From Eucommia ulmoides (Eukaryota > Streptophyta > Magnoliopsida > Garryales > Eucommiaceae), in contig CM028336.1 in assembly GCA_016647705.1 (NCBI GenBank), forward strand, positions 13,586,880-13,650,879: a stretch of DNA of 64,000 nucleotides, in the 5' to 3' direction. Shown here in pieces: positions 5,912-63,439 of this stretch (the stretch's first letter is position 1; each line of letters starts with the position of its first letter). The position numbers were made by a program, and so were the translations under genes. Under the pieces are notes generated by a model, which was given only the letters and a program-made list of their open reading frames with translations, searched no databases and was not told the origin of the DNA.

Positions 5912-7934
5912 TGGTGTAGGTGAAAATCAACCGATCTTTAGTTGGATACACCTAGGCCTGCCACATAGGCAAGAGTTGGACACATTATCAGACGGTCTGA
6001 TTACCCCAGTCTAGTGTCCTGACAGGTTGGTCGTCTTGAAGGACTTGAACTATCCCCGAGTAGAAATCTCCAACATTGACAACGGATACTACCAATGAGG
6101 GTCATGTCAACATGACTATCTCAGTGTCCGTTCTGGTGCCTGGGCCAACCCACTAATCTTAATAACTTGGCCCATGGGATTCTCTATCAACAATCAAAGG
6201 CCAGGTGGTATTGGAATATTACGTTGCTACTTTCATCACAAGTGTACGGGTCAAGTTTTAGTATAATAGAAAGAGTAGGGGTTGTCGTATCTATAGGGAT
6301 TGGATTAAATCATCACTAAGTACTGCGATTGTCATAACCTAACTTTATCTAAGCGACTCAAATGTAGTTTTTGTTAATAAAATATACTAAACTAAATTAA
6401 TTACTATAATCCTATAATACTAATATGACGTTTAAGAAAATATATTGTCTAGGGATTAACTTCATTCACTTAATCGTATTTGATTCAATCTAGTTTATAT
6501 TAACGACATTCAAATCTATCCGGCAATCTAGGTATCGAAAACTCACCCACTACCTCTTCCGAGTGTAAAGTGAATGAATATGAAACTTCGCGTCAATGTC
6601 AAAGTCCCCCTCTAGCGTCTATATGACACTTGGTCATATGAGTCTCGCCCCAACCTCATGGATTGCACACTTTCTAATATCTTATCGGGTCATTAAATCG
6701 TCGCGTTGTGTTTAAACTCTAGTCCGAATCCGGGGTTACATCTCCCGAGTGTCAAACCCCGTATTTTCAATATATCTTAACAAGCATATAAAAGTGAAAG
6801 AATGGTAAACGCAATTGAATAGGCAAGAACAACTGATAACGAAACAAAGATTAAACAAACAACGTTTTCATACACGAATCGTTTCCTAGACAATTTATGT
6901 TTAGTTTCGCATGGCCATAACCACATATACAACAATATACTAGCTAAATATATACAAATATATTAACCAAAACTAAGAAATAAAGAGAGAAACAATGATA
7001 CTAGCCGTTATTCGAAGAACCAAGGCTAAAATCGCTCTGAGATTGTTTCTTTTTCTTAGATTTGTGATCTTATCTTGATTGATAGGGTTTGGAGATCCCA
7101 AAACCTTCCCAAAAATGTGATCTAAGTGTTGGGGAAAAGGGATGATAAGAAGGGATCCAAAATATCCTAGAAAATATCCCAAAATATCAACAAAATCTGG
7201 TGTCGGACTGCTGCAGCGGTGGGAATCATCGCTGCAGCAGTGAGAATCAATAGGCATTATGCTGGATGACCATTGTAGCACTGAGAAGCACCGTTGTAGT
7301 GGTGGAAGGGCAAAATATTTCTGTTTTATTGATCGCTGCAACGGTGGTTTCACTCAGCAGTGGGCCTACAGTTGTGAACTTGCCTTCTTTGCTCTTTTTC
7401 CAACGTTCTTCCACTAACATTCCATCGATTTACTCGATTATGAACTGTTTTCGTCCCTTTTCGTCTCAAACACCTGATTTATAACAAAACAAATAAAAAC
7501 GTATTAAAACATATTAAAACACTATAATAATACTTGAAAACTACCAAAATCGGTTTGTGAATAAATAGATAAATTCCATCTATCACTAGGCCCATAGCTC
7601 TAATCCCCTCACACGCTCTCCATGTGCCATTTAAGGGCTGGTAACTGAGCTTAAGACCTTAATTTCAAGAATGCTAATCATGTTCTCACCAATAAAAAGA
7701 AGGTGTGGACAAGCCTTTTAGTAGGTTCCAACGCCCGCAAGTCCTTGGTGCAGGTACCAACCTGAAGGTCAGGCCGGACAACACTACCCCAACTTGGTCA
7801 AGCACTGGGTCCAGGAATGCAAAGCCCAAATGACTCAATTCTAGCAAAGATAATTTCCAAATCGCCAGGAACTCTTCACGCGAAAGCTAACCAGACCATA
7901 CTGTTGGTTGATCTAGTGTTTGACACGAACAACA
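5912..7934 (+). mobile_element. Tat-like gypsy 3' LTR (fossil), interrupted
   Basis: This starts TGGTGTAGG directly after the polypurine tract and appears to end in GACACGAACAACA near 7934. A solo LTR of family A (6206-7585) is inserted in it. Without that insert the LTR would be about 640 bp. The right edge adjoins a partial LTR of the family B element. Confidence 0.45.
6206..7585 (-). mobile_element. Solo LTR of family A (fossil)
   Basis: This is a 1380-bp LTR in reverse orientation, closely similar to the LTRs at 8702, 57989 and 62053. On the minus strand it starts TGATAGATGGAATTT and ends in TACCA. It is flanked by CCAGG (6201-6205) and CTAGG (7586-7590), a 5-bp target duplication with one change. 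With no internal region or partner LTR, it is best read as a solo LTR left by LTR-LTR recombination. Palindromes of the CCGCTGCAGCGG type lie at 7210-7342. Confidence 0.85.
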
Positions 7935-8701: not shown

Positions 8702-9753
8702 TGATAGGTGGAATTTACCTATCTATTTCTAAGACGAATTTGGTAATTTTTGAGTGTTTTATTAACATTTTAAAGTGTTTATGTTTGTTTTTTTGTAAAT
8801 CAGGTGTAGGGATGTAAACAGTTGATAATCAAGCAAATTGGTAGAAAATCGGTGCAAAAAATGATGAATATGATCAAAGAATAAACCAGTAGCTTCACCG
8901 CTGTAGCGGCGAAAGATTAGAAACTTCAGAAACTTTCTGCCTGTCAACCTCTATAGCAGTAGCTCTCACCGCTGCCGCAGTGAAAGGGCAGAATGCCCAC
9001 TGACTTCCCAGCGCTGCAGCAGTCAAGCCCACCGCTGTAGCGGTCAATCAGATAGCTGGATTAGATATTTTTTAGATATTTTTTATCCTTGTCTTATACC
9101 TTTCCTCCTACCCATTGAAGAGAGTGTATTCGATTGTGTTTACTGTTTTATGACTTCCATTATATGCTTATTATGGTATTTTGTTTGGTTTGAGAATACA
9201 GAGTTTGATACTTAGGAGAGGTAACCCCAGATTCGGACTCGAGTTTAAACACAACGTGACGATCTAATCACTCGGGAGAGTATTAGAAAATATGCAATCC
9301 GTGAGGTTGGGGCGAGACTTATGTGATTAGTGTCGTTTAGATGCTAGATGGGGACATCGACATTGACGCGAGGTTGTATATTCATTTACTTTACACTCGG
9401 GAGAGGCAGTGAGTGAGTTTTCGATACTTAGATTGTCGGATAGTTTGAATACCATTAATGTAAACTAGATTGGATCAAACACGTACAAGTAAACGAAGTT
9501 AATCCCTAGGTAATCTATTCTCATGTAGTATACTTAGTATTGTAATTTAATTAGTTATTAATTTAATTTAGTATATACTAAAAACAGAAACTGTAATTTG
9601 AGTCGCCTAGATAAAATTCGGTTATGACAATCGCGGTACTTAGCTACAATATAATCCAATTTCTATGGATACGACAACCCTTCTCATTCACTATTGTATA
9701 AAATTTAACGCGTACACTTGCGATAAAAATAGCGACGTAATATTCCACTACCA
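8702..9753 (+). mobile_element. LTR of A1 (fossil)
   Basis: At 1052 bp it is shorter than the 1378-1387-bp LTRs of A2. Palindromes of the CCGCTGCAGCGG type occur at 8897-9044, for example ACCGCTGTAGCGGT at 9031-9044. Confidence 0.8.
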
Positions 9754-9889
9754 AGTTTTTGGTGCCGTTGCCGGGGATTGACTTTTAGATTGTTGTTGAT
9801 ATTGTGACTAAGTAACTTGATTTTAATTTAGGCATTTATTTTTTTTATAATTTTGTTTTTAGTTTGTTTTGTTTTTCGAGGTACTTGGG

Positions 9890-12128: not shown

Positions 12129-14362
12129 TGTTGGGCCAATGAGCTACTCAATAGGGGGGGGGGGGTGAATTGGGTAGTATTAAAAATTATCAGAGAAATA
12201 ATAATACTTCAAAAATCAAACAATTAATTTTATCCTAAAATTAATTTTTATCTTTATAGCAGCGGATAAGTGTAATAAGCTCTAAGTGCACACCCAAACA
12301 ACGCAAGATAAAATAAAGCAAATAAATAATGTAGTACACACCGATATATCCTGGTTCACCAACCTACTTTTAGCTAATCTAGTCCTCCGAGCCCCACGGA
12401 GATTCGCACCCACTAAATTTAAGATTCCTTAACAGGTAGGAACCAAACCCTCACAATTATTCTTTTACAGGCACAAAATCAACCTTTACAAAATCCTTTT
12501 CACAGGCTAAGGAAGAACTGCTACTTTTACAGACTCAAGAATAACCTAATTCTATTATAGGGAGAATCACAACCTAATTCTTTTTATACCTTAGGCTCAA
12601 GAATCAAAACCTCACAAAAATACTCCAACTATCTTTTTCCAGGTAAGGATGGAACCTTTATAAAACACTCACAATTAATTCTATAAATGAAGAATTAACA
12701 CCTCAATCTCTTTATCGAAAGAGATTAAAACCAAGCTACCCCTGATTAGATACCCCCAATAGTACCTAATCCGCACACAACTCACCAATTACAAAAATTG
12801 ATAAGTTCTTCCCACTCAAAACTTCTACAACCTTAGATTAATTAATACTCAATTAATGTCACAATACTAGTGATAGAAATAAAGTGAGGAAACAAAATCT
12901 GATTATAATAAAGAATGCGGGTGACACAATTAAGTACGTAATCAGATTAACACAAATCGTTTTAAAAGATTTTTATGCTTTTAAAGTTCAAAAACGATTT
13001 TATCAAGATCTTATCAACCAAGTAAATATAGAAAAATAAATATGCAGTAAAGATTAATAGCCTGGAAAGATCTCACCCAAATAATACTGAAGAATTATAG
13101 ATTGGAACGCTAGACAGCTCAACTCGGTGACGTTTACACAATCAGCGCTTTAACTCAAGAACTCCGCAATAATTGATCTCACAATTTAATATCTCGAAAT
13201 AATATCAGAATGATTACTCTTATAAAATTTTATGAACTGAATAGTTCTTGATATTATTACTTTGTTATGTAAAATCCCCAGATTTATATATAGGGGATTG
13301 AAACAAGCCCTATAACGACTAGTTTCCACAAGATATGTCTTTTAAAATCACCTATAGACCCCATATATTAATACCTTTTGTTTAAGGTATATTTCACTTA
13401 ATAATATCTTTCAAAATATTCAATTTAGTCCCTCAAAATAATTTTCAAACCCAATTCAATAAGATAAGAAGTATTAAAAGGACTAATTTGAAAAACACTT
13501 TAATTCCATGTATCAAATCTATAGGAATATTAAAATAAGAGTATTATATCTTAAAGATATCCATATCCCTAAAATCACTCAATCAGGTAACCAAATAACG
13601 GCTAGTTTTGGATCAAATCCCAAAATTCCATAAAACTTGACACAAACTCATCAATCGACCGACAAACACTCATAAGTCAACCGCCCGATTCAGGTTGTAG
13701 CCCAAGCCAAACATTTCTTGCCCATTAGTCGAACCGGTAATTCACAGTCTGTCGACCGAATGATACAAAGAGTTTATCCTCCAAGCATAGGTCGACCTCC
13801 CTATCGACTGATCGATTCAGAGAGTTCACTTTCTACACTAGGTCGACCTATCTGTCGATGGATCGATTCAACAAGTTTGTCTTATATGCTTCAGTCGAGT
13901 CCTCATTTCTGAACACTTCTCTCCAATTTATTTTTAATACATTCTCATTGACATTTTCGCCCCTTTAACTAATTTTTTTTTTCTCAATTAGCTCTACTAA
14001 ATTCTTAAATTCAATTTTAATTAATTATCAATATTTTTTTTTATCAATTACACATAAGCAGATAATGTCACTAATTAGAATCCTATCAAAATAAACAAAA
14101 AATTAAAAAAAAAAATTGTGTCATGTGTGATCCTAATCAGGATACATTAAGAGTAAAAATTAACTAGAGTTGTTTTCCCTTAGATTTTTCAAACTCTTCG
14201 GTCTCTTAATGTCCATCATCTTTGTCAGTCTCTTTAGCATGTATTCATTACTTGTCATCATATCTTCATCATTGAAACTAATAAACTGAAACACTTAATC
14301 AAACCGTTAGTTCCACAAAAAACATCAACCTTTAATTGTTCATCAAAATCTTAGGATCAACA
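12129..14362 (-). mobile_element. Element C 3' LTR (fossil)
   Basis: On the plus strand it starts TGTTGGGCCAATGAGC, followed by a G tract (12156-12168) and GTGAATTGGG, an arrangement typical of SIRE/Maximus LTR ends. It ends GGATCAACA. A GTCGAC-rich segment lies at 13650-13900. Confidence 0.85.
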
Positions 14363-16418
14363 ATCTCTCCCTTTTTGATGATGACAATTAACTTTGATAT
14401 TTTCTTCAAAACAATAATGTAACCACGCTCTTCCTAAATCTGAGGATGGGTTTTTTAACTTGTTAAAGCATAGTAATGAAGATAATCATAAGATTTTTAA
14501 CAAAGCACAAATTTCGATATACAATAAACTCCCCCTTAAGATATTCAACAAAATATAAACTAATTCTCCCCTTTTGTCATCTCAAAAAACAAAAAAAAAA
14601 AAAAAAAAAAAATTGGGGAGGGGGAAACCAAAAACATCACTTAGAAATGTAATCTCCGCGTAGGGCAATCAAAACATCTTAGTAATGTAGCATGATATTA
14701 ATATTTCACAAGCATACTAACTCTTTTGATTTATCAACAATACTCATCTTTCAATATAAGCATGACATAATATTACCTCTCTTATAAACGCTTATCCCCA
14801 TATATAATTGTAAACAAGTCTATTCATGCTTAAGAGAATAAACCTAAGGCAATCAAAATGCTTTAACAATATAACATGTAATCACATAATTTCAGTTAAG
14901 TTCTCATGTCTTACTCATGATACCAAATAATGTCTTCCTATTAGCTAAAATCAAGTCATGTAATATTTAATGCACTAGAATAAGAATCATATCTCAAGAA
15001 TAACTTAGGATCGATCAACATAAATCTAATACATGCTTTAAACTAAACACATGATCACTACTTGATATAAGGATATAAAGACATGTTAATACCCCTTAAC
15101 TAAATGTGATTTCTAGAATCACCATATAATGTTTCTAAGACAACAAATAAATACATCATTGAAATTAGGTCTTAGAAACTATCACCAACTTACCTATTTG
15201 GCAAGTTGGGTACCTCCCTCTTTAACAAATTTAATGAATTTAAAATGTAGAGGGTTAGGAGTACTTTTTCTATCGTTTGGGACAACTTTGCTCTTTACCT
15301 CATTTATACCGATGATTGATTTGGGTGTGCAATTTTTCTTTGCTTATCCGTATCCTCTCAACCTTTGATTTTTGTCATTTGATTCATTGACGATTTCCTT
15401 TGCACGTATCGCTTGTAGCTTCCTGGTGATATCTCTCATCTTGGCTTTTGTACAACTTTTCTCTTTACAAATTTCTCTTGTGGCTTCTTTGAAACTTCAC
15501 TTCTTGTCTTTAATGCATTTTTTCGCTTTGTATGCATCGCTTGTGGATCCTTGGTGACTTGACTTGGCTTTGATATAACTTATTTGTTTGTTCCTTCGGG
15601 TCCACTTCTGACATTATGTAACTCTGCACAAGACATTGCAACAGTTCTCTTCGATATCCATTTCATTTTAGATCCGTCCTTTTTAGACATAAACTTAAGG
15701 TTCCTGAATGGACATGACACTTTAAAATGCCCAACCCTATTTCAATAATAACATCTCAAATTTGATTTATCATAGAAACACAAGATGTAAAACATAAATC
15801 ATTTCTAACAATAGAAGTATAACTATCACTGGCCTGTGATGAAGGATAAGACGATGAAACATATCCACTTTGCCTAGAAAAATCATTTTCAGAAGCTCTT
15901 GAAACAGACTTGAGGTCAGATTTTGATTTTTCAAAATTTTTCTTAAGTAAATCGATTTTTGAATCAAGATCTGACCTTTACTTAAAAATCATGTTAAGAT
16001 TATTTTTTAAAACTCTATTTTCATTTTCAAGAGAATCTATTTTAGAGAGAAAATTATTAATTTAAAAAATAACGTCCGAAAACTCTTTTGTACCACAATA
16101 ATTAACCAAATTCACTTTAGATTTTCTAACACTTTCTCCACCATGTTCAAAAGAATCAATTTTTCTTTTTAAACTCAAGTCCTCTTTAGCAAAAATTAGT
16201 GTGAAAGAAAGTACTTTTTCTATAACAATATGGACATCTTCATTATTATCATCTGCATCAATACCATTAAAATCATAAGAATCATAAACCACATTATCAT
16301 ATAAGGATCTATCACCATCAAGAGAAGATACATAAAAAATATTATCCATGGTGTGTACACATGATCGGTTTAGCTAGGATGTTAAACCTAACGAGCTAAA
16401 ACCAGCTCTGACGCCAAT
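14363..16418 (-). pseudogene. Element C gag-like internal region (fossil)
   Basis: The stretch 16062-16349 (minus) encodes an acidic segment (YDSYDFNGIDADDNNED), then a lysine/glutamate-rich helical stretch, as seen before the zinc knuckle in copia gag. Further heptad-like sequence (SKIDSLENEN) and a zinc-knuckle-like segment (NRVGHFKVSC) follow down to about 15600. The remainder towards 14363 is non-coding. The region is broken, with several breaks, and no protease, integrase or reverse transcriptase is seen. Confidence 0.6.
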
Positions 16419-18664
16419 TGTTGGCTTAGTGAGCTACCCAAGAGGGGGGGTGAATTAGGTAGTATTAAAAATTATCAGAGAAATAATAACACTTCAAAAA
16501 TCAAACAATTAATTTTATCATAAAATTAATTATTATCTTTATAACAGCGGATAAGTATAATATGCTCTAAGTGCATAACCAAACAACGTAAAATAAAATA
16601 AAGCAAATAAACAATACAGTATACACCGATATATCTTAGTTCACCAAGTTACTCTTGGCTAATCCAGTCCTCCGAGCCCCACGGAGATTCGCACCCACTA
16701 AATTCAAGATTCCTTTTTAGGTAAAAACCAAACCTTTACAATGATTCTTTTACAGTCTCATAATCAACCTTTACAAAATCGTTTTCACAGGCTAAGGAAG
16801 AACCTCTACTTTTTACAGGCTCAAGAATAACCTAATTCTATTATAGGGAGAATCACAACCTAATTCTTTTTATACCTTAGGCTTAACAATCAAAACCTCA
16901 CAAAAATACTCTATCATTTTCCAAGTAAGGATGAAACCTTTACAAAACACTTACAATTAATTTTATAAAGGAAGAATTAACACCTCAATCTCTTTACCGG
17001 AAGAGATTAAAATCAAGCTACCCCTGATTAGATACTCCCAATAGTACCTAATTCGCACATAACTCGCCAATTACAAAAAATGATAAGTTATTCCCAGTCA
17101 GAGCTTCTATTACCTCAGATTAATTAATACTCAATTCATGTCCCGATACTAGTGATAGAAATAAAGTGAGGAAACAAAATCTGATTGTAATAAAGAGTGC
17201 GGGTAGCACAATTAAGCACGTAATCAGATTAACATACAAATCGTTTTAAAAGATTTTTATGCTTTTAAAGTTCAAAAATGACGTTATCAAGATCTTATCA
17301 ACCAAGCAAATATAAAAAAATAAATATGCAGTAAATATTAATAGCTTGGAAATATCTCACCCCGAATAACACCAAAGAATTATAGATTGGAATGCTAGAC
17401 AGCTCAACTCGGTGACGCTTATACAATCAGCGCTTTAACTCAAGAACTCCTCAATAATTGATCTCAAAATCTAATCTCTCAAAATAATATCAGAATGATT
17501 ACTTTTATAAAAACTCATGAACTAAATAGTTCTTGATATCATTACTTTGTTATGTGAAATCGCAGGTTTATATATAGGGGATTGAAACAAGCCTTATAAC
17601 GATTAGTTTCCACAAGATATGTCTTTTAAAATCACCTATAGACCTCATATATTGATACCTTTTGTTTAAGGTATATTTCACTTAATAATAACTTTCAAAA
17701 TATTCAATTTAGTTCCTCAAAAGAATTTTCAAACCTAATTCGATAAGATAGGAAGTATTAAAAGGACTAATTTGAAAAATACTTTAATTTCATGTATCAA
17801 ATCTATAGGAATATTAAAATAAGAGTATTATATCTTAAAGATATCCATATCCCTAAAATCACTCAATCAGGTAACCAAATAATGGCTAGTTAACAACTAG
17901 TTTTGGATCAAATCCCGAATTTTCATAAAACCTGACATAAACTCATCAGTCGACCGACAAACACTCATAAGTTGACTGCCCAATTCAGGTTGTAGCCCAA
18001 GCCAAATATTTCTTGCCCATCGGTCGAATCGATAATTCACAGTCTGTCGATTGAACGATACCGAGAGTTTATCCTCCAAGCACAGGTTGACCTCTTTGTC
18101 GACTGATTGATTTAGAGAGTTCACTTTCTATACCAGGTCGACCTATCTGTTGACGGATCGATTCTGCAAGTTTGTCTTATACACTTCAATCGACTTATCA
18201 GTTGACTCCTCATTGCTGAACACTTCTCTCCAATTCGTTTTTAATACATGCTCATTGACGTTTTCTTCCCTTTAACTAATTTCTTTTCTCAATTAGCTCC
18301 ACTAAATTCTTAAATTTAATTTTAATTAATTATCAATATTTATTTTTCAATTACACATAGGAGCAGATAATTTCACGAATTAGGATCCTATCAAAACACA
18401 CATAAATTTAAGAACTTTTTGTGTCGTGTATGATCCTAATCGAGATACATTTAGAGTAAAAATTAACCTGAGTTGTTTTTCCTTAAATTCTTCAAAATCT
18501 TCGGTCTTTTAATGTCCATTATCTTGTTAGTCTCTTTAGCATGCATTCATTACTTGTCATCATATCTTTATCATTGGAACTAATAAACTGAAACACTTAA
18601 TTAAACCGTTAGTTCTACAAAAACTATCAATCTTTAATTGTTCATCAAAATCTTAGGATCAACA
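16419..18664 (-). mobile_element. Element C 5' LTR (fossil)
   Basis: At 2246 bp it matches 12129-14362 along its length. A minus-strand TATA box TATATATAAA lies at about 17567-17576. The GTCGAC-rich array (17943-18200) lies some 370-630 bp upstream of it in element orientation. Confidence 0.85.
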
Positions 18665-19055
18665 AAACCCAGTCAAGCATATGGATTTCCTAATCCTTTA
18701 TGGTTAAAGTCATGAGCTTGGTTAAAGAATAATCCAATCCGGTGTTTGGATTGTTATATATTTGAGTTTTCACACACACACTTCGAATGGATCTAGAATG
18801 GTCTTTACTGATATTGAGTTTTGAAATTCTAGAATACTATGTGGTGTGTTTTATTCTTGAACTTGATTTGATTAGAGGTCGTTGAGGGAAAAACATTTTG
18901 GTTTATTAGGTGAATTCAGAACTCGCATGCCGTTACTTCTAGTTTATTTATGTTTTTTTGTGTTTAGTAATAAAATTAGTTAATTAGTCGTGGTAGTTTA
19001 ATTTATTGCGTGGGTGTTTTGCTCGAGGACTAACAAAATTCTAAGTTTGGGGGTA
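18665..19055 (+). mobile_element. A1 internal domain, right segment
   Basis: This continues A1 after element C. It is collinear with 61670-62050 of A2 (ACCCAGTCA...CACACACAC...GAGGGAAAAA) and ends in the purine tract of A1 at 19055. It is non-coding. Confidence 0.75.
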
Positions 19056-19375: not shown

Positions 19376-20294
19376 CACTTTCTTTTCTTTTAAGTAACAA
19401 AAGTAAACAAAAACATTAAACTTGCCTAAACAAGTAAGTTTGGTTGGAGTGTTCTTGACAAGAATCAAATGTGCATATCATTTACCATTAGTATCATGTC
19501 CTTTTCTTATTTTTTTTTCCTAAATAAACAAAAAGAACAAAAAAAGAAAAAACATAAAAAAGAAAAATGAGTTTTTACATAGGGAGTTTTACAACATGAA
19601 AAGACTTTATGTTTTACTCTAAAAATAAATCATTTTTTTAGATTATTTTTCAAAAATAAATATTTTTTATATACGCTAAACAAATAAAACTCCCGGGGCT
19701 AAACTTGTTGATTATTCCACAATCGATAGGCAGTATAAAAGGGGGACTTTTGTTCTTTATTTTAATCTATTTTATCTATTAGTGTTTTTTCTTAAATATT
19801 TTTTCTTATTTTCTTGAACAAAATAAACATAAAAGATAAACAAATTTCAAAATGGGAATCAGTGTGTTAAGCGAAATCGAAGAAAATTTCTTAGACTAGT
19901 TTGATCCTAAAGATTTATTTAAACTTATGTACCATCTTTGAACGAGTGTCTTGGGGTGCCTAACATGTTTCCCGAGCATAACTGACCCCTGAACTTTAAA
20001 GAAATCTTTGGTTAAGACCAACTGTTTTTGAGTCAAAACGTGGGCCATTTCTAAACTAAAAAAATGAATTTCTAAATTCTGGTGACTTAGCACTCCATTT
20101 AACTCAATCTTAAGTGGAAACTCTATTTTTTAAACAAATCCCACCCAATGAATGTTTTTCAAAACCGACGTCTAGAAAATTCTCTGAAACTATTTTTCTA
20201 AAATGAACGGATTTTGAGGATTTTGAGATGAAGGAAATCAAATTGCATTTTCCTATTCTCACTTTCTCTATTTTCCAAAATTCAGGGTGCTTCA
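19056..20294 (+). mobile_element. Family B left LTR, second segment (fossil)
   Basis: This is collinear with 56550-57732 of B copy 2: GATCATGG(T)CTGGCCCTATGTCT, the downstream AATAAATGGAG, and a terminal TTCAGGGTGCTTCA. The primer-binding site follows at 20295. It contains a compound microsatellite at 19310-19374. Confidence 0.7.
19310..19374. repeat. (AC)n(AT)n microsatellite
   Basis: An uninterrupted AC tract of about 44 bp is followed by an AT tract of about 20 bp, inside the family B LTR. The corresponding place in B copy 2 (about 56785) has only ACACCTATATAA, so the tract expanded after the copies diverged. Confidence 0.9.
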
Positions 20295-22189
20295 GCTCGC
20301 GATTCCGTTGGGGACTTTAGAGGTTCAAGCCTAATTGTAGTTTAAATCTATCTTCAAGATCAAACAAAGTCCAAGAAATACATCTTCGGTTTTTAAACAT
20401 AATAATTTCCTTTTATCTATTTTTTTTTTTTAAATTTTACTCACATATTTCTTGTTTTATATATTGCATTCTTTTATTTCATGTCTTTACGTTTCTTCAT
20501 TTACTTTACAGTCTTTACATTTTTGCATTTCATTTTCTTTAAGCTCTCTCCAAGGCACGAGCACCACGTTGCATTTGCATATCATGAGAAAAACCCAAAG
20601 TTGTGGACCTCATTAGGAGGCCAGTAATAAAGGCTGAAGTCGTGCAATTTCATCACTCAGATCTAAGCCTCAAAACCCTATAGGATTAGAAAGATAAGTT
20701 GGTAGAAGTAAGGCCGTGTGGTATATACGTCGCGATCTGGCTTCAGAACTCGCTTCACTTGGATCACCAACCAAACATGGATGTTCCCCTAGAGAGGACG
20801 CCAGAGGTTTGAAGATCTAAGAGCCGAACCTTTGTAGGATGCGTCAGTAGAAAAGTTGTGAACCTCATATAGTGAATATAGGATGGAATGATACCCAACA
20901 ATCCATTTTGCATTAGGACACTATTTTGGAGAGAGATATTTTTCTTTTACCTTATGTATATATATATATATATTTTTTTTATAGATTTGTTGTTTAGGAT
21001 CTATAGAAGAAAATTGCTAGGACTAATAAGGTGCATAATAGACAACATAATAGTTCTTGCTCTATCTTTTATTTCGCAAGCATGCTTGCTGTCGAAAACT
21101 CTTTCAAAATCAGACTAGGGAGGAAGTTACAGGAGAAGAATTGGAATCCTTATTTTGGCTAAATACAAGAAACTCTTCAAGATGACATTAACCTCATATA
21201 AATCATAAATATGTTTCGCATCTGAAATAATGCTCATAAAAAGCGTGCCTCAATAATTCCTGAACGTTTTTGCCTCTTAAATAATATACATAAAAACCAT
21301 GACTTAGTAATTCATAAAAAAATAGCCTTTGGAAAACAACCGTCCAAAGGTTCGTCCACTAAGACAACAAGATAGAATCTACTAGGATTGCACACAACTG
21401 CATCAAGCTTACCAAGATACAATAAAGTGTCACCACCCAGTCAAATCAAAACTCTTTGATCTAATAGTAAACATACCTTAAGTCGCACCACCTTAGGATT
21501 TAAATGTCACATCCTAAGCATGACATATGAGAGTCTTTTCTCGTAATCATGTACAATAGAGGTCATACACCATAAGGAATAATGTACATAAAGCCTGTTC
21601 CAATAGTTCATTAAGTAAGATTTAGGTTGAAAACTGCTTAGGTAAGTCAAAACCTTTATGCTAAGAGTCTAGCTAAGGTTCGCTAGTCAGATTGTTAAAA
21701 TAGATTCACCCTCAGAGAGACATCATGAATTCAAAAAGTATTTTAGACCCTTTATTGAATCCTAGAAGTAATGATCTATATTTTTAGGAAGAAAAAGACA
21801 ATTCTTCCATAAAGTCCTAGGAGCAATGATTCATATTGTGAGGAATAAAATAACAATTTTGCCATAATCCTAGATGACTATAACTTTAAAGTCAAGGATA
21901 ATCCAAAAAAATTCCAAGTTACTTTGTCATACAAAACTAAGTCCAAGTCAAGGTCTATCTAGAACATATCTTAAAATTGCCTGCTAGAGCAACATCTTCC
22001 TAGGATTGCATACATACATCATGAATATTATCATCCATTCATATAGACTTATTCCTACATAGGCAAAAATACGCAAGGATAATTTGCATAAGAAAACCCA
22101 TATAGTTCATTAGTCAAAGTCTAGGTTTATAATCACTTAATAATATAAGAATTAGGTAACTTTTGCTAAATGTCATCTAAGATCCGCTC
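20295..22189 (+). mobile_element. Family B internal leader, non-coding
   Basis: This runs from the primer-binding site to the first gag-like sequence. Positions 20540-21110 match 63440-64000 of B copy 2. No coding sequence is recognised; the 76-codon frame at 20888-21118 contains a translated (TA)n tract. Confidence 0.6.
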
Positions 22190-26100: not shown

Positions 26101-26699
26101 AACTAAATCAAAATTAAAATAAAGAAAAGGAAAAAAATAAGCATTTGATTTCAGTCACTTTGTCGTCACTTAAGGAACTTTTTGGGTTTGTCTAAAAACA
26201 ACCATTCCTTTTTTAGGTCAGGAAACCAAAGAATTCGACTGGTAATTCAGAATACTTTGGGTTTTGGAGGAAAAATGGTTGAAAACTTCTACAAATCTAG
26301 AAACTTTCGATAAATGACTAAGTTCAAGATTGTACTCCTAAGAAGAAAATGTTTATACTACAATTATGCAAATACTTGCATTACTTTCGATTGTCTATAT
26401 ATTATTTTTCATTTATGACTAATATTGCAATACAGATAATGGAAAGAATGAATGATAAAAATCAAGGGGAAGAAGTGCAAGAAGGTTAGAATATCATATT
26501 TTGAGAATATTTTTTTGCCTTAGAAAAGGAAAAGCCGAATACTGCTACTAAGTTCACGATAAGCAAGCCCCAATCTTCGACTAGGGAATATTTTATCTGG
26601 TGTAACTTCTTCTGAGAAGTTTTCTAGTTCTCTTTGGCAGTCCCAGGTGGGAATTCGCCTTGAAACTCCATTGAATGTTGAGTTTCCCGGAGGGCTTCT
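23101..26699 (+). mobile_element. Family B internal, no clear pol
   Basis: Apart from the faint gag-like tail near 23390-23600, no protein domain could be recognised. Two diverged copies of a motif occur at about 25745-25815 and 25945-26015, each with TTCTTGG/CCTTGG, then TATRTAGGAGA-like sequence, then GGTTCG(G/A)TCG. A third copy lies in the B LTR at 56990-57050. Element D is inserted at 26700. Confidence 0.5.
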
Positions 26700-28334
26700 T
26701 GTACGCGCGGGGGATTCGCACCCTCGGTGTATCTAACTACTCGCAAGTGTACAAGATCAAAGTTTTAGTATAGTATGATCGTTAAGATTGGGTTATTGTA
26801 TCCACTGGGATTGGTGTCGTTACTATCGAATACCGCGTTTATCATGACCTAACTTTATCTACACGAAAAATAAATGTATTTAATTAATTAAACTACTACT
26901 AATATAACCTAAATTAACTACATTAATATGCTTAATATGTTTTAGGGTAATGAATTGCCTAGGGATTAACGTGTTTATAAATACGTGTTCGATTTCAATT
27001 TACTCACGTTTACGGTGTTCGACCTATTTGACAACCTCGGTATGTAAACTCCACCGCCACCTCTTCCGAGTGTAAGACAGGCGAATACATGACTTCGGGT
27101 TAATGAAGAAGTCACCCTCAACGTCTTAACAATCCTAGGTTACATGAGTCTCGCCTAGCGTTATTGATTGCACACAATCCAACTCCTAACTAGGTCATTG
27201 GATCGTGCGTTGTTTTTACCCTATCGACAATCTCCGTTCTAAAACTCCCTTGCCACCTCTCCTGAGTATAAGACGAGGGATATAACACGAATTTGTGTCA
27301 ACGAAGAAGTCCCCCTCAAGGTCTTAACAACCCTAGGTCACATGAGTCTTGCCCCAACGTTATCGATTGTCCACAATCCAAACCCTGACCGGGTTATAGA
27401 ATCGTGGCGTTTGTTTACCCAAATCCAAATCCGGGATTTGTCAAAATCCCGTATTCTCCATTTATCTAACTAAGCATGATAAACAAACAACACGATAAAT
27501 ACAATCAAACTACGAAGAACAAACATAAACGCAACACCGAAATCATCCAAACAACGTATTTATAAATTATATGTTAATCCCTATACAATCTATGTTTAGC
27601 TAAGGCCATAGCCGCATTTACAATGAAATAATAAGCTAAACATGCTCACATGATCCTAAGTTAAAGAAATAAGGAAAAACAATCGAAGAACTTAGCCTCG
27701 TCTGAAGATAAACCACTAAGAATGCTCAATGATCGATTCGCCGTCTTCTCCACTTCGGGATGTGAGATCCACCTCTAAAACTTCTAAACCCTAGCCTAAA
27801 TATAGATTAAGGTGTCCAAATGGCTGGGGTGGGGGGTTTACAATGAGGGGAAAGAGGATGGTATTTATAAACAAAATATCTCAAAAAATATCCTAAAAAT
27901 ATCTAGGCTGTGCTGAGGTTCTCCGCCTAGGCGAAGGGATTTTCCGCCTAGGCGGCAGTAGGTTGGTTTGGCTGATCACCTAGGTGCTAAAGTTGGTGGT
28001 GGACTTTGAAATCTTTATGCTGGATTTTCGCCTAGGCGATGGATTGTCAGTAGCCTTTTGTCATTCTCAGCTTTTTCATTGCCTAGGCGGTGGTTTGGAC
28101 ACCTGGCGGTGGGCCTGTTTTACAATTTTACCTTCGATCTTGTTTATCCACCATAACTTCGACCGCTTTTGGTTCAATCTCCTTGTTTTTGGTTCAGTTT
28201 TCTATCTTTTTGCCCTATATACCTGATTTATACAAAAAGTATGAAAACTAATTAAAATATAATAAAATACTATATAAACACACGAAAACTAACTTAATTC
28301 GGTTTGGAAATACGTAGGTAGATCACACCTATCA
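26700..28334 (-). mobile_element. Element D 3' LTR (fossil)
   Basis: This 1635-bp LTR has a minus-strand TATA box TTTATAAATACC at about 27862-27873. Palindromes with the form CCGCCTAGGCGG lie at 27923-28110, upstream of that TATA box in element orientation. Confidence 0.85.
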
Positions 28335-30268: not shown

Positions 30269-30408
30269 TCATCGATAACGGCGCCAAAAACTTGGTGGAC
30301 GTTGACGGAAACTGAATCTGACAAACCAATCCTCGGCAACGACGCCAAAAACTTGGTGGACGTTGCTGGAAACTGAATTCGACAAACCAATCCTCGGCAA
30401 TGGCACCA
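30269..30408 (-). repeat. Three tandem primer-binding-site-like units
   Basis: On the minus strand three 18-bp sequences similar to the tRNA-Asp primer site end at 30408, 30347 and 30286, exactly 61 bp apart. They match TGGCGCCGTTGCCGGGGA at 15, 16 and 14 of 18 positions. The sequence between them is also repeated (GGTGGACGTTG, GGAAACTGAAT, GACAAACCAATCC), so a 61-bp unit was amplified. The unit next to the LTR would be the functional site. Confidence 0.85.
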
Positions 30409-30414
30409 AAAACT

Positions 30415-32000
30415 TATACGCGCGGAGAATTCACACCCTCGGCGTATCTAACTACTCACAAGTGTACAAGGTCAAAATTTTAGTATAGTGTGATCGTTAA
30501 GATCGGGTTATCGTATTCACAGGGATTGGTGTGGTTACTATCGAATACCACGTTTGTCGTGACCTAACTTTATCTAGGTGAAAAATAAATGTATTTAATT
30601 AATTAAACTAATACTAATATAACCTAAATTAACTACATTAATATATTAATATGTTTTAGGGTAAAGAATTGCTTAGGGATTAACGTGTTTACAAATACGT
30701 GTTCGATTTCGATTTACCCACGTTTTCGGTATTCGACTTATTTGACAATCTCGGTACGTAAACTCTACCGCTATCTCGCCCGAGTGTAAGACGGGGAAAT
30801 ACATGACTTCGAGTCAATGAAGAATTCCCCTTCAATGTCTTAACGACCCTAGGTCACGTGAGTCTCGCCCAGCATCATTGATTGCACACAATCCAATTCC
30901 CGACCGGGTCATTGGATCGTGCGTTGTATTTACCCTATCGACAATCTCCGTTCTAAAACTCCCTGTCCACCTCTCCTCGAGTATAAGATGAGGGATATAA
31001 TGCGACTTCATGTCAACAAAGAAGTCCCCCTCAACGTCTTAACGACCCTAGGTCGCGTGAGTCTTACCCCAACGTCATCGATTGTCCACAATCCAAACCC
31101 CGACTGGGTTATAGAATCGTGGTGTTTGTTTACCCAAATTAGAATTCGGAGTTTTTTAAAACACCGTATTCTCTATTTATCTAACTAAGAACGATAAACA
31201 CAATTGAACTACGAAGAACAAATATAAACGCAACATTGAAATCATCCAAGCAACGTATTTATAAATTATATGTTAATCCCTATACAATCCATGTTTAGCT
31301 AAGGCCATAGCCTCATTTACAATGAAATAATAAGCTAAACATGCTCACATGATCCTAAGTTAAAAAAATAAGAAAAAACAATCGAAGAACTTAGTCTCAT
31401 CCGAAGATAAATCGTTACGAACGCTTAACGATCGATTCGCCGTCTTCTCCACTTCGGGATGTGAGCTCCATCTCTAAAACTCCTAAACCCTAGCCGGGGG
31501 TTCACAACGAGGAGAGAGGGGATGGTATTTATAAACAAAATATCTAAAAAACTATCCTAAAAATATTTAGGCTGTGCGGAGGCTCTCCACCTAGGCGAAG
31601 GGATTTTCCGCCTAGGTGGCGGTAGGTCGATTTGGCTGATCGCCTAGACGCTAAAGTTGGCGGTGGACTTGGAAATCTTTCTGCTGGATTTCCACCCAGG
31701 CAGTGGGCTGTCAGTAGCCTTTTGTCATTCTCAGCTTTTTCATTCCCTAGGCAGTGGTCTGGATGCCTAGGCGGTGGGTCTGTTTCATAATTTTGTCTCC
31801 GAGCTTGTTTATCCACTGTAACTTTGACCGCTTTTGGTTCAATCTCATCGTTTTCGCTCCGATTTTCTATCTTTTTACCCCCACACACCTGATTTATACA
31901 AAAAGTATTAAAACTAATTAAAACCTAATAAAATACTATATAAACACACGAAAACTAACTTAATTCGATTTGAAAATATGTAGGTAGATCACACCTATAA
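30415..32000 (-). mobile_element. Element D 5' LTR (fossil)
   Basis: At 1586 bp it is collinear with 26700-28334. Palindromes of the CCGCCTAGGCGG form lie at 31587-31780 and are more diverged than those in the partner LTR. The 114-codon minus frame at 31544-31888 is LTR sequence and not a gene. Confidence 0.85.
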
Positions 32001-38382: not shown

Positions 38383-40589
38383 ATGGCTGAAAATGTTGAC
38401 AACACTCCTGCGGTTGTTACCAATGATGAACGCCCATCACAATGTAAATGAAATAAGAAGTCCTTTGTTTGGAAATATTTTACAGAATTGAAATCTGAGG
38501 ATGGTAAGGGTCCTAGGGTAGCTTGTAATTACTGTTCTAAAGATTTTGCATGTGATTCGAGAAAAAATGGAACTAAGACAATGGCAGTTCACCTAGAGCA
38601 AAGATGTGATAAATACCCGTTTAGAGTCCCGGATCCCAAACAAACAAAGATTGCCTTTAAAGCGAAATCGGATTGTAGCGGTAGTGGTCCATTATTACCA
38701 TGGTCTTTTAGTGCAAAGGATTGTAGAAAAACACTTGCTATAATGATAATAATTGATGAATTACCATTTAGGTTTGTTGAAAATGAAGGATTTAGGGACT
38801 TTATGCGTGTTGCTCAATCTATGTAGGTGAATATTCCTTCTCTCACTACGATTGCTAGGGATTGTTTGAGACTTTATAATGAGTCAAAGGAGAAGTTGAA
38901 ATCTTTTATGAAGGGTAAGAGAGTTTGCCTAATAATCGACAGATGGACGTCTTTGCAAAATTTGAATTACATGTGTCTTACTGCGCACTTCATTGACAAT
39001 GATTGGAAATTACACAAAAAAATCATCAATTTTTGTTTAGTTCCAAATCATAAAGGCAAAATTGTTGGTAACACAATTGAAAATTGTTTACTTGATTGGG
39101 GAATTGGAAAATTTCTTACTATAACAATAGATAATGCAAGTTCAAACAATGGTGCAATTAATTTCTTGAAGAGAAAGACCAAAAATCTGAAGGGTATTGT
39201 ATTGGAACATGAGTTTCTACATTTTAGATGTTGTGCACACATTTTAAATCTTATTGTGTGCGAGGGGTTAAAAGAAATGGATGAGTCTATCCTCAAAATA
39301 AGAAATGTAGTAAGGCATGTGAGGTCATCTCCATCTAGATTGGCAAGTTTCAAGATTTGTGCTGAAAAAGAAGGTATTGATTGTAAGAGTCAAGTTTGTC
39401 TTGATTTGCCAACTAGATGGAATGCTACTTATTTCATGTTGGAGAAGGCAATTAAATTTGAAGTAGCATTTGACCGATTGGTGGAAGAGCGTACACAAAT
39501 GAATAGAGTTTTTGATGATGATGATGAAGAAGATGATGTAGATGATGCTGAGAATGTGAGAGGAAAAAAGGCTAGAAGGATTTTGGGTCTACCAACTAGT
39601 GGGGTTTGGGAAAAAGCTAAATTGTTTGTAAAATTTCTTAAATTATTTTACAATGCAACTTTACGGTTTTCCGGTTTCTTATTTGTCATATCTAATAATT
39701 TTTTCATGGAGCTTATGATAATCCAAAATGGAATAAGTAACTTGGGTGAAAATTCCGATGCGTTTTTACAGTTAATGGCAATTGGAATGAAGGAAAAATT
39801 TAACAAATATTGGAAAAATACCAAAAAAGTAAATCCGTTGTTGCTTGTGGCAGTTGTTCTTGATCCTCGATACAAGTTAAAGTATGTTGAATGGTGTTTT
39901 GGGGAATGTTACGATAAATCCATTGTGCTTGAGTTAATTAATAAGTTGAAACGATGTTTGAATTAATTGTATACTTGGTATTTTGAAAATGGGATAGTAA
40001 ATGTAAGTGAATCCCAAGAAACAAGCGTACTCTCGATTGATTTAGACGTGGAAGAAGAGGATGAACGTAAATATTTCGTTGCCAAATTTCAAAAACACCT
40101 AATAGACGAGGGTGATATGAGTTATAAATCGGAAATGGATAAGTTTTTGCTTGATTCCTGTTGAGAAGGAAAGTAATAATTTTGATATATTGGGGTGTGG
40201 AAGATAAACTCGTCGAATTATCCGATTCTCTCTCAAGTAGCGAGGGATGTGTTAGCCATTCTGGTATCTACCGTCATTTCAGAATCTACTTTTAGCACCG
40301 GTGGACGCATTCTTGATCCATTCCGAAGCTCATTGTCAACAAAGATGGTGGAAGCCTTAATTTTCTCTCAAAATTGGTTGCGGCAATCAACTCCTATCAA
40401 TCTTCGAGAAACAGTGGAACAAGTTGAACAACTTGATCTTATTGACGTGGAGGAAGGTAATAAAAAATAGAAAATGTTTGTTTACAATTCATAGTTTCTT
40501 TTCCTTGTTAATACATTAATTTCTCTCCTTTTTTAATTATAGATCTTGGTCAACCTTTTTTTTCGGAATTAGAGACTATTAACGAGTGA
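38383..40589 (+). pseudogene. hAT transposase (zf-BED, Ac-like), decayed
   Basis: This would cut and rejoin DNA at hAT ends in the nucleus. The frame starts at ATG 38383 (MAENVDNTP) and runs to 40456. A probable 86-bp intron (GTAATA...TTATAG) leads to a last exon 40543-40589 ending SELETINE and TGA, about 706 codons in all. In order: BED zinc finger (SFVWKYF...CNYC...HLEQRC, 38467-38620); RNase-H-like core with candidate acidic residues in LIIDRWTS and ITIDNASSNN, RCCAHILNL and TRWNATY; and the hAT dimerisation region (NYPILSQVARDVLAI...STFSTGGRILDPFRSSL, 40213-40340). Stops lie at 38449 (TGA), 38824 (TAG) and 39964 (TAA). A +1 shift near 40162 is offset by a -1 shift near 40195. Each stop is one C-to-T change from CGA, CAG and CAA respectively. 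Confidence 0.9.
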
Positions 40590-57732: not shown

Positions 57733-57988
57733 GTTGACGAATCCACGAGGGACTTTTGAGGGTCAAGCCTAGTTGGATTTTAATTTTATCTTTTGATATT
57801 AAATAAAGTCCAAAGAATATGTTTGTGGTTTTTTTTAGATATAAATAATTCCCTTAAAAAAAAATTATTTTTTGTTGCTTCTTATATGATTCATGTTTAT
57901 ATATTTCATTCATTTATTTACTGTCTTTACTTTATCGTATTTACTTTACCGTTTTTAAATTTTGACATTTTATTTTCTATAAGATCTT

Positions 57989-59366
57989 TGATAGGTGTAA
58001 TTTATTTATTTATTCCTAAGCCGATTTTGGCAGTTTTCGAGTATTTTTATAACATTTTAATATGTTTTAATACGTTTTTATTTGTTTTATTATAAATCAG
58101 GTATTTGGGGGTGAAAAAGGACTAAAACGGTCTATAAACGATCAAGTCGGTAGAAGAACAATGGAGAAAAGGGCAAAAATGTCAATATTCAGGACCTGCA
58201 TTCATTGTTGCAGCGGTGAAAATAAAGAGAGTTGTTGATTCTCCACCGCTGCAGCGGTCAAAATACAGAGAACTCCACCGCTGCAGCGATGAAACCACCA
58301 CTGTACCAGCCACCCGCCAAAAATCCATTGACCTCTCAACCGCTGCAGCGGTTATCCAACAGACAGTTTAGATATTTTAGGATATTTTGTTGATATTTTG
58401 GATCATATAAATATCATCTCTTTTCTCCCAAACAAAGAGTAGACGTTTTTGGGAGTTTTGAGAGCTCTAAGGCCATTCAACCAAGAGAAGATCATCAAGG
58501 CCAAGAGGAGGAAGCGATCTCGAAGTGGTTTTAGCATCGGATCTTCGGATAACGGTTAGTCTCCTTGTTTCTCTCCTTTATTTCTTAGTTTGGTTCAATG
58601 TTTTGAATATGTTTTGCTTGTTTCTAGTTGTATATATGGCTACGACTATGTGTAGCTAAACATATATTGTCTAGGGCTTGATTGAGTTCATGAAAACGTT
58701 GTTTATATAAAATCGATGTTTTGTTAATGGTTGTTCTTGTTGATTCGATTGTGTTTACCATTTTTCCATGTTTATATGCTTGTTACGATATATTCAGAAT
58801 ACGAGGTTTGACACTTGGGAGGGGTAACCCCGGATTTGGACTAGGGTTTAAACACAACTCGACGATCTAATAACCCGAGAGGAAATTAGAAAGTGTGCAA
58901 TCCGTGACGTTGGGGCGAAACTCATGTGACCAAGTGTCGTATAGATCGAGGGGGATTTTGGCGTTGATACGAAGTCACATATTCATTCACTTTACACTCG
59001 AGAGAGGTAGTGAGTGAGTTTACGATACCGAGATTGTCGAATAGATTAGAATGCCATAAATGTAAGATAGATTGAAACGAACATGTTTAAGTGAACGAAG
59101 TTAATCCCTAGGAAATATTTTCCCATAAATGTCATACCACTATATTAGTATATTAGATTAATTAGTTTAATTAGATAATTAATTTAGAATATTTATTATA
59201 AAAACCTATTTTTTATCGCCTAAGTAAAGTTAGGTTATGACAATTACAGAACTCAACGATAATCTACACCAATCCTTGTGGATATGACAACCCTTACTCT
59301 TCTCACTCTACTAAAAATTGACCCGTATACTTGCAGTGAAAGTAGTGACGTAATTATGCGCTACCA
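57989..59366 (+). mobile_element. A2 5' LTR (fossil)
   Basis: This runs TGATAGGTGTAATTT...CTACCA. Palindromes lie at 58204-58353, including the perfect 16-mer AACCGCTGCAGCGGTT at 58338-58353. A TATA box (ATATAAAT) lies at about 58405, 50-200 bp downstream of them. Confidence 0.88.
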
Positions 59367-62052: not shown

Positions 62053-63439
62053 TAATAGATGTAATTTATCTACTTATTCCCAAGTTGGTTTTGGTTGTTT
62101 TCGAGTATTTTTATAACGTTTTAATATGTTTTAATAAGTTTTTATTTGTTTTATTATAAATAAGGTATTTGGGGTGAAAAGGGACTAAAACGGTCTACAA
62201 ATGGTCAAGTCGAAGAACGGTGGAGAAAAAAGGCAAAAATATCAATATTTAGAACCTGCATCCACCGCTGCAGCGGTAAAAATATAGAGAGTTACTGATT
62301 CTCCACTACTGTAGCGGTCAAAATACAGAGAGCTCCACTATTGTAGCGGTGAAACCACCGTTGTAGCGATCACTCACTAGAAAACCACCAACCTTTCCAC
62401 TACCGCAGCGGTGATCCCACAGCTGCAACGATCACCCAGCAGACGGTTTAGATATTTTAAGATATTTTGTTGATATTTTGGATCCTATAAATATCATCTC
62501 TTCTCCCCCAAACATAGAGTAGTCGTTTTTGGGAGTTTTGGAAGCTCCAAGGCCATTCAACGAAGAGAGGATCATCAAGGCCAAGAGGAGGAGCGTTCTC
62601 GGAGTGGTTTTAGCGTTGAATCTTTGGATAACGGTTAGTCTCCTTGTTTCTCTCCTTTATTTCTTAGTTTGGTTTAATGTTTTGAATATGTTTAGCTTGT
62701 TTCTAGTTGTATATATGGCTACGGCCATGTGTATCTAAACATATATTGTCTAGGGCTTGATTTAGTTCATGAAAACGTTGTTTATGTAAAATCGATGTTT
62801 TGTTAATGGTTGTTCTTGTCGATTCGAATGTGTTTACCGTTTTTCCATGTTTATATGCTTGTTATGATAATATTGAGAATACGGGGTTTGACACTCAGGA
62901 GAGGTAACCCCGGATTCGGACTAGGGATTAAACACAATGCAATGATCTAATAACCCAGGAGGGAGTTAAAAAGTGTGCAATCCGTGACGTTAGGGCGAGA
63001 CTTATGTGACCAAGTGTCGTATAAACGCTTGAGGGGGACTTCAGCGTTAACGCAAAATCACATATTCATTCACTTTACACTCGGGAGAGGTAGTGAGTGA
63101 GTTTACAATACCGAGATTGTCGAATAGATTGGAATGTCGTTAATGTAAACTAGATTGAAATGAACACGTTTAAATGAACGAAGTTAATCCCTAGACAACA
63201 TTTTCCCATAAACGTCATACCACAATATTAGTATATTAGATTAATTAGTTTAAGTAGATAATTAATTTAGTATATTTATTATAAAAACCTATTTTTTATT
63301 GCCTAAATAAAGTTAGGTTATGATAATTACGGTACTCAACACCAATCCCTGTGGATACGACAACCCTTACTCTTTCCACTCTACTAAAACTTGACTCGTA
63401 TACTTGCAGTGAAAGTAGCAACATATTTATATGCTACCA
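62053..63439 (+). mobile_element. A2 3' LTR (fossil)
   Basis: At 1387 bp it is collinear with 57989-59366. Palindromes lie at 62264-62430, more diverged than in the 5' LTR. The changes are mostly C-to-T or G-to-A within the CpG and CTG/CAG sites of the palindrome. Confidence 0.88.

Follow-up and report, generated by a model that had tools for sequence, protein, structure and literature searches.

Helically phased palindrome arrays with changing cores in the U3 region of related plant LTR elements: probable enhancer-like operators

The long terminal repeats (LTRs) of Sireviruses, which belong to the Ty1/copia elements, carry repeated motifs (RMs), palindromes that are clustered in the upper LTR half ahead of a TATA box, which is itself conserved. 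The majority of RMs share a CGG-CCG signature with family-specific intervening bases; a table of 13 RMs gives 3-14 copies per 3' LTR, according to the available parts of that report (PMC2829016, Bousios et al. 2010). For a motif and its binder changing together, the best worked case that we found is that of VANDAL transposons and their VANC proteins, as described in the accessible sections of PMC5735166. Here we describe palindrome arrays in a 64-kb stretch of the Eucommia ulmoides genome (64,000 nucleotides of contig CM028336.1, hereafter the window), which looks like plant repeat DNA, judging from its LTR elements. Self-comparison and reading of the ends gave four insertions of related LTR elements in the window, designated A1, E1, E2 and D. 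We propose that their arrays, located in U3 close to the promoter, probably serve as enhancer-like operators in a large clan of LTR retrotransposons for which no proteins were recognised; we assign them an enhancer role because of their position, symmetry and phase.

The sites are dyad-symmetric palindromes with the signature CCG-N6-CGG, in many near-identical copies. The A-type elements (A1, E1 and E2) have CCGC-TGCA-GCGG arrays at the place where D has arrays of the CCGC-CTAG-GCGG type. The arrays in the window are the following:

27923-28110, minus strand: array of the D 3' LTR, six sites of the CCGC-CTAG-GCGG type, found by motif search and LTR alignment (centres ~28105, with a 2-bp deletion, 28084.5, 28033.5, 27981.5, 27949.5 and 27928.5)
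31587-31780, minus strand: array of the D 5' LTR (centres 31768.5, 31748.5, 31697.5, 31645.5, 31613.5 and 31592.5; gaps 20, 51, 52, 32 and 21 bp)
58204-58352, plus strand: array of the A1 5' LTR, TGCA core (centres 58210.5, 58251.5, 58283.5, 58303.5 and 58345.5)
62264-62432, plus strand: array of the A1 3' LTR, six sites with TGCA-derived cores (gaps 41, 32, 20, 42 and 20 bp)
~7207-7345, minus strand: array of E1 (gaps 42, 21, 41 and 21 bp)
~8897-9044, plus strand: array of E2 (gaps 50, 21, 42 and 21 bp)

Like Sirevirus RMs, these are dyad palindromes in many near-identical copies that cluster upstream of the TATA box in U3, and the outer CACCG/CGGTG letters of the OPIE-2 and PREM-2 RMs, as given in the available part of PMC2829016, also occur in them. 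Unlike the RMs, their half-sites face the other way (CCG...CGG), and they lack the CGG-CCG core signature. Family-specific cores within common arms are already known in kind from Sirevirus RMs; what sets the arrays described here apart is the orientation of their half-sites, the class of element, the phase and the fact that core change can be seen directly. Neither helical phasing nor core change in place between related LTRs was met in the accessible parts of PMC2829016, and a limited literature search met no helical phasing of LTR palindromes.

A preliminary description of the window had reported the CTAG arrays in both D LTRs, with about five copies each, identical arms and only the 4-bp core swapped. 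Motif search and alignment confirmed both arrays, with six array positions in each LTR. The core difference stands: of the 11 D copies tabulated (the copy with the 2-bp deletion was excluded), 10 have the core CTAG and one has CTGG, and the 21 A copies in the window read TGCA (10), TGTA (6), TACA (2), CGCA, TGCC and TATA (one each). No CTAG occurs among the called A copies in the window and no TGCA among the called D copies, nor does any window array mix the two. The arms are alike by consensus only. Scored at eight arm positions per D copy, 65 of 88 cells match, and the perfect D 12-mer, CCGCCTAGGCGG, is present in just one of the 12 D copies (27944-27955). Since each arm holds a CpG, the misses (19 C>T/G>A changes and four others) look like decay of methylated cytosine after insertion. 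Allowing up to three mismatches, CCGCCTAGGCGG matches 11 places in the 64 kb, nine of them inside the two D array stretches; shuffled controls gave a mean of 3.4 and a maximum of 9.

The 11 A cores that are not TGCA are one or two steps from it, and TGTA and TACA can be its deamination products; we also keep open that the TGCA of A is itself CGCG after two CpG transitions. Simple decay as the source of the difference between CTAG and TGCA was rejected, because C>T/G>A changes cannot turn TGCA into CTAG. Conversion-like homogenisation, which the preliminary description had offered as one cause of uniform arrays, is unlikely to explain the window arrays by itself, since the spacers between copies are mostly unlike each other within an array; the exception is spacers 1 and 2 of A1, which are duplicates.

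The arrays occupy a fixed place in elements that are related outside them. The LTRs and their landmarks are:

26698-28334, minus strand: 3' LTR of D (self-comparison, ends read, LTR alignment)
30413-31998, minus strand: 5' LTR of D (direct repeat of 26698-28332 at 86% identity by BLAST; ends read)
30391-30408, minus strand: primer binding site of D, TGGTGCCATTGCCGAGGA, read from the sequence
27862-27869, minus strand: TATAAATA box of the D 3' LTR, 59.5 bp from the nearest palindrome centre
31526-31533, minus strand: TATAAATA box of the D 5' LTR, 59.5 bp from the nearest palindrome centre
57989-59366, plus strand: 5' LTR of A1 (self-comparison, ends, alignment)
62053-63439, plus strand: 3' LTR of A1 (self-comparison, ends, alignment)
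6206-7583, minus strand: E1, A-type, one LTR (self-comparison, alignment)
8704-9755, plus strand: 5' LTR of E2, A-type (self-comparison, alignment; primer binding site at ~9762)

A MAFFT alignment of the six window LTRs placed both array types between the conserved LTR start and the block of GATATTTT boxes and TATA box, that is, upstream of the TATA box in U3. From the nearest palindrome centre it is 25.5 bp to the first GATATTTT box in five of the six LTRs (26.5 bp in E2), and 60.5 bp in A1 or 59.5 bp in D to the TATAAATA box (four of the six LTRs); no TATAAATA box was found in E1 or E2. Between array and TATA box, the six LTRs hold two or three GATATTTT boxes spaced 10-12 bp apart that link the two, for example at 58371-58400; in the 5' LTR of D the boxes are 23 bp apart and the middle one is lost. 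Across 70 LTR rows, the last palindrome and the first GATATTTT box are separated by distances that cluster at ~26 or 36-37 bp. The boxes are possibly phased, curved DNA.

The preliminary description depended on D being a relative of A outside the array, and this holds. A1, E1 and E2 are 58-63% identical to D along the LTR and 66-71% in its first ~150 bp, and the internal tail of D is 79% identical to that of A1 (A1 and E2, 78.7%). The arrays of A and D themselves align poorly, at 42-49%.

We counted perfect sites in the host genome (946,670,599 bases), with reversed 12-mers as controls. The D 12-mer CCGCCTAGGCGG occurs 9,932 times (control 10), the A 12-mer CCGCTGCAGCGG 2,838 times (control 36), CCGCCATGGCGG, with a CATG core, 201 times (control 5), and CCGCNNNNGCGG 41,499 times (control 6,112). 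TGCA is 14 times commoner than CATG, and both are two CpG transitions from CGCG; at equal distance, such an excess suggests that more than mutation decides which cores spread. Perfect D sites lie 16-46 bp apart in 158 pairs (control 0), and D and A sites do so in 2, against ~90 expected by rough arithmetic if the types mixed in proportion to their counts.

For site-by-site scoring we used 80 loci. The D set comprises 38 stretches, which cover 48 of the 50 D places listed (each of them on contig C1); two mixed places were added to it, and the A set comprises 40 stretches, which cover 42 of the 50 A places listed. Arms-only scoring gave 372 sites in these loci; the background of such calling is 24 sites in one shuffled 64-kb window, against 37 in the real window. 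Read toward the dyad, the inner dinucleotides of the 744 halves are mainly CT (289) and TG (258), followed by TT (59, one C>T step from CT), TA (55) and CG (50). Hybrid palindromes exist that join CT with TG (CTCA/TGAG), CT with CG (CTCG/CGAG) and TG with CG (TGCG/CGCA). Mixed cores within single arrays, which the preliminary description had itself named as a refuting observation, do occur in other subfamilies and speak against its replacement of every copy in concert. They are found in 12 of the 73 LTRs placed in a tree (below), of which 10 join CTAG-type with TG- or CG-type halves and two (L063 and L081) hold TG and CG only; outside the tree, L049 joins CTAG with others and L070 holds TG and CG only. 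The arrays that join CTAG with other cores are L012, L013, L030, L036, L037, L042, L043, L049, L050, L057 and L066, and L049, L050, L057 and L066 hold CTAG and TGCA in one array. Within the 14 mixed arrays, perfect 12-mers dropped, like halves pair with like: 33 of 39 sites when D halves are set against non-D halves (23.7 expected; 1 of 10,000 shuffles as high), and 24 of 39 when D, A and G classes are kept apart (16.8 expected; 23 of 10,000 shuffles). As a separate observation, L024 and L039 each hold nine CTAG-type palindromes in stretches that the D and A LTR probes did not match by BLAST.

Comparison of closely related LTRs gave a direct view of core change. L012, L030 and L057 form one tree clade (100/99), and in its spacers L057 shares 76% identity with L012 and 74% with L030. 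At homologous sites, the cores of L012 and L057 read CTAG/CGCG, TCAG/CGCG, CTAG/CTAG, TGCG/CTCA and CTAG/TGCA, and those of L030 and L057 read CTAG/CGCG, CTAG/CTAG, TGCG/CTCA and CTAG/TGCA. Against L057, the arms of L012 and L030 are 84-85% identical and the cores 40-44%, with transversions at 14% of spacer positions and 5-6% of arm positions. Between L037 and L063 all four homologous sites differ (spacers 67%, arms 72%, cores 44% identical), and between L021 and L036 one of four. On a plain reading of these sequences, cores appear to have been replaced in place, one site at a time. Given the mixed arrays and the in-place differences, we rejected a single concerted replacement event. The observation made in the preliminary description is confirmed, and its concerted-swap reading is partly supported: A and D are related outside the array with different cores at the same place, and perfect cores are strongly segregated, as the pair counts show, but arrays elsewhere appear to change site by site.

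Neighbouring palindromes tend, with noise, to be spaced by about a multiple of 10.4 bp, which puts them on the same helix face, in TGCA, CTAG and mixed arrays alike; distant copies are not phased. In the window, the gap orders differ between the four elements, as listed above, and all gaps fall within ~2 bp of 2, 3, 4 or 5 helix turns. The best period for the 18 gaps of the four insertions is 10.3 bp, and 0 of 20,000 random gap sets were as good. Three types of hit had been removed before this test (at 156.5 in the A1 5' LTR; at 356.5 in the A1 3' LTR, overlapping another site; and at 430.5 in both D LTRs). Automatic calling at six thresholds, with gaps of at least 80 bp excluded, gave 0 of 20,000 at each, and likewise with the total lengths of the arrays fixed; the loosest threshold keeps a D hit 24 bp from its neighbour, which lowers the mean cosine from 0.91 to 0.84, still at 0 of 20,000. 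Taken element by element with a free period, 274 (A1), 143 (E1), 1,672 (E2) and 241 (D) of 20,000 random sets were as good, and a threshold-free spectrum peaks at 10.3 or 10.4 in each of the four elements.

The same spacing holds across the 80 loci, where 199 of 292 gaps (68%) lie within 1.5 bp of n x 10.4, compared with 29% of the integer gaps 17-110; gaps above 110 bp were excluded from these counts and from the count of distinct gaps given below. The share is 104 of 128 in loci selected by the A 12-mer, 91 of 157 in those selected by the D 12-mer and 38 of 51 in the 12 mixed tree arrays. The lower share in D-selected loci is due mainly to 70-71-bp steps. Among the 50 listed of the 158 perfect D-D pairs, for which 16-46 bp was allowed, 39 are 19-21 bp apart and 11 are 41-43 bp apart. 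We also observed, among the first 100 CCGCNNNNGCGG matches listed, sites with the same arms and CGAA/TTCG, CGTA or TACG cores in pairs 23 bp apart (e.g. C1:632363/632386, 740448/740471 and 1205181/1205204), a poor fit to the 10.4-bp rule.

The largely constant arms, the symmetric core, the phase and the fixed place upstream of the TATA box are our reasons for proposing a dimeric DNA-binding protein, or rows of them, seated along a single face of the double helix. Such a protein, a dimer or a side-by-side oligomer, would read the half-site (C)ACCGCNN, in which the leading C was left unscored; the units would consist of largely constant arms, ACCGC....GCGGT, around a variable 4-bp core, with NN mostly CT, TG or CG. 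Helical phase would let the dimers cooperate. A new array specificity could arise when the inner dinucleotide changes in one half, then in the other half and then in further copies; the step from CG to TG could be plain CpG deamination, a single transition, and CT would require a transversion or some other path. Selection in favour of a single specificity, perhaps together with unit duplication and exchange of U3, would then make arrays uniform again. The putative binder may be a host activator, a host repressor that is being escaped, or a protein encoded by an element; paralogues of a host activator are our first guess. LBD/LOB proteins were considered as the binder and dropped; the literature searched gave no motif paper of use for them.

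Co-evolution with a putative binding partner is the best reason that we can give for symmetry and phase. A more specific version is tentative. It would be a lock-and-key code, in which the address, CACCGC, stays fixed and a diversifying family of dimeric proteins reads the inner dinucleotide (CT, TG or CG) as an exchangeable digit; switching would proceed in place, half-site by half-site, through hybrids, with sites kept on one helix face, and CTAG might have been reached more than once in response to the same partner. With thousands of copies in one genome, and uniform, mixed and hybrid arrays side by side, the clan offers a natural record of change in operator recognition, and the co-evolution of multi-site arrays with their binder becomes directly testable. 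The palindromic LTR arrays of Sireviruses may then exemplify a broader design that Ty3/gypsy-type elements also use, and helical phase an added rule that can be checked in Sirevirus families.

Several results weigh against an operator under selection. For phase, (i) the gaps are non-independent through shared descent, and the strictest reduction of the window data, to four gap classes, gives p ~0.02 for periods 10-11 and 0.12 for a free period, which is suggestive only; (ii) 25 distinct gaps above 25 bp, each counted once in the 38 D stretches, have a mean cosine of 0.36 at 10.3 and 0.35 at 6.4; (iii) the 70-71-bp steps suit a period of 10.2 better than 10.4; and (iv) phase across whole arrays is lost beyond 200 bp (34 offsets, -0.19 at 10.4). 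For site conservation, of the five LTR pairs compared, a single one has palindromes that, taken whole, exceed its spacers in identity; L030 and L012, which differ at one of four sites, have arms less identical than their spacers (84% and 92%); and calling sites by their arms biases arm identity upward. Since the loci were selected through a perfect 12-mer of type D or A and come almost entirely from contig C1, the proportion of mixed arrays among them is not representative. The excess of TGCA over CATG could be founder luck. The arrays fold into strong hairpins. Finally, the spacers of two CTAG lineages are weakly alike, which bears on the best surviving alternative.

That alternative is exchange of the array as a cassette. 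On this account the CTAG array has a single origin, template switching or gene conversion carried it from one LTR lineage to another, and the swap in D is a replaced block; we regard this as possible, if rather doubtful. Bearing on it is a tree built without the array, the check that the preliminary description had asked for, from 73 LTRs, using the first 150 bp and the 300 bp after the array. These are 73 of 86 rows (80 loci and six window LTRs), the 13 others being four unoriented and nine without a U3 match. Calling an array uniform when at least 90% of its classified half-sites agree (L035 has one site only, and L021 has one hybrid), the tree holds 26 TGCA-uniform arrays, six nearly so, 29 CTAG-uniform and 12 mixed, so that 55 of the 73 sampled arrays are near-uniform in one core. 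The CTAG-uniform LTRs are split: 13 fall in a 19-row set with three A-type and three mixed LTRs (100/100), and 16 in a 27-row set with four A-type or near-A and seven mixed LTRs (100/100), with A-type LTRs between the two parts. Forcing the 29 into one group against 32 A-type LTRs, a group named after the first tree, was rejected (log-likelihood difference 110; p-AU 3.1e-6 in the approximately unbiased test). CTAG-uniform arrays are therefore not one clade. The two CTAG blocks alone force at least 3 and 4 changes, and four classes on the tree require 17; as the tree has no outgroup, gain and loss of cores are indistinguishable in it.

Repeated fixation of CTAG, repeated loss of it, or movement of the array from lineage to lineage would each account for this. 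Array exchange is made possible by the weak likeness between spacers of the two CTAG lineages (10 of 28 pairs at z>4, against 0 of 35 between lineage 1 and A), and the poor alignment of the A and D arrays fits a replaced block. Lineage 1 spacers are, however, closer to those of the adjoining mixed arrays (16 of 28 at z>4), and exchange is not needed for single-site differences between LTRs with alignable spacers, nor for hybrid half-sites.

A neutral history would need no change of partner: short units duplicate, elements spread by copy and paste, methylated cytosines decay, and uniform cores reflect the founder copy. Much of the substitution pattern agrees with it, as C>T/G>A changes make up 40 of 49 A mismatches and 19 of 35 D mismatches (two end letters included) and CpG transitions lead from CGCG to TGCA. 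Duplication is seen in the A1 spacers, and steps of ~70 bp, repeated in some other CTAG arrays, may reflect tandem units. We nevertheless consider this account unlikely. Against it stand the 10.4-bp phase across different gap orders, like-with-like halves and TGCA far above CATG, and where homologous cores differ, arms exceed spacers in identity (L012/L057 and L030/L057, less so L037/L063).

The VANDAL transposons suggest a further alternative, an arms race in which a host silencer or an element-encoded, VANC-like anti-silencing protein binds the arrays and core change serves escape or re-targeting. In the available part of PMC5735166, VANDAL motifs are short and arrayed in the non-coding sequence of a mobile element of plants, versions of the motif differ between related families, the copies evolve together, and motif and VANC specificity change together; all of this resembles the present case, in which core types change at several points of the tree. 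VANC motifs, by the same source, are non-palindromic and in one orientation, and they lie in DNA transposons with a known, element-encoded binder, whereas the present sites are palindromic. D and A1 lack a recognised protein, and a protein of their own would require a partner element, for which no search was made. We consider an arms race of this kind distinctly unlikely.

Action of the palindromes as RNA or single-stranded hairpins (in packaging, in dimerisation or as small-RNA precursors, the last as has been argued for maize Sireviruses) is improbable: the four A1 and D arrays do fold as RNA better than shuffles (z -5.3, -6.1, -3.8 and -3.9; 0, 0, 1 and 0 of 200 as good), and the accessible part of PMC10760457 describes strongly folding palindrome clusters in the cis-region of plant LTRs, which in Sirevirus LTRs attract small RNAs, but any row of repeated palindromes folds well, a B-DNA period is meaningless in an RNA that is single-stranded, and the arrays are placed upstream of TATA.

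The proposed operators belong to elements of a class other than Sireviruses. A primer site of the type TGGYSCCRTTGCCGRGGA is common to A1, E2 and D; this site, TGGTGCCATTGCCGAGGA in D, we take to be the complement of tRNA-Asp. It is unlike the tRNA-Met primer site of Sireviruses, and the elements do not fit the Ty1/copia Sireviruses. As far as the available part of PMC6317226 goes, tRNA-Met primes the Ty1/copia lineages with complete tRNA primers, and non-chromovirus Ty3/gypsy elements use others, including tRNA-Asp. The interior of D holds no stop-to-stop frame above 104 amino acids, and the two longest frames of A1 (129 and 214 amino acids) matched no Pfam family above its cut-off. With LTRs, primer binding site and polypurine tract present and gag-pol not recognised in D or A1, these two elements are best called LARD-like (large retrotransposon derivative), possibly of the Ty3/gypsy non-chromovirus type.

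Further features of the window touch the elements themselves. The D LTRs hold a 195-bp tandem duplication (27030-27221/27226-27420 and 30744-30935/30940-31135; copies 76-77% alike), which the aligned A LTRs lack. A1 is inserted at 57987/63440 in a repeat whose other copy, at 19678-21120, lacks A1 and gives an empty site at 20544. The interior of E2 is interrupted at 12129-18665 by a different LTR element on the minus strand, with LTRs at 12129-14363 and 16419-18665 that are 89% identical. The nested element has a primer-site-like TTGGCGTCAGAGC and palindromes of its own, AGGTCGACCT (one copy AGGTCAACCT), 51 bp apart and upstream of a TATA box. These resemble the Vitis Sirevirus motif CGGTCGACCG given in the available part of PMC2829016. 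At 38827-39966, on the plus strand, lies a hAT transposase fragment, a 379-amino-acid open frame with a hAT-like RNase-H domain (PF14372, E 8e-23).

Outside plant sequences, plasmid records gave no match to the U3 of D; among viral contigs none had the primer-site pattern, and the four with the 16-mer show no similarity to the window. Papers containing one of four motif strings seem, judging from their titles, to be unrelated. One locus, L005, is the Streptomyces clavifer contig BMWJ01000030.1, 3.9 kb long with 37% GC and a plant-type junction of LTR and primer binding site, and it looks like plant contamination of a bacterial assembly.

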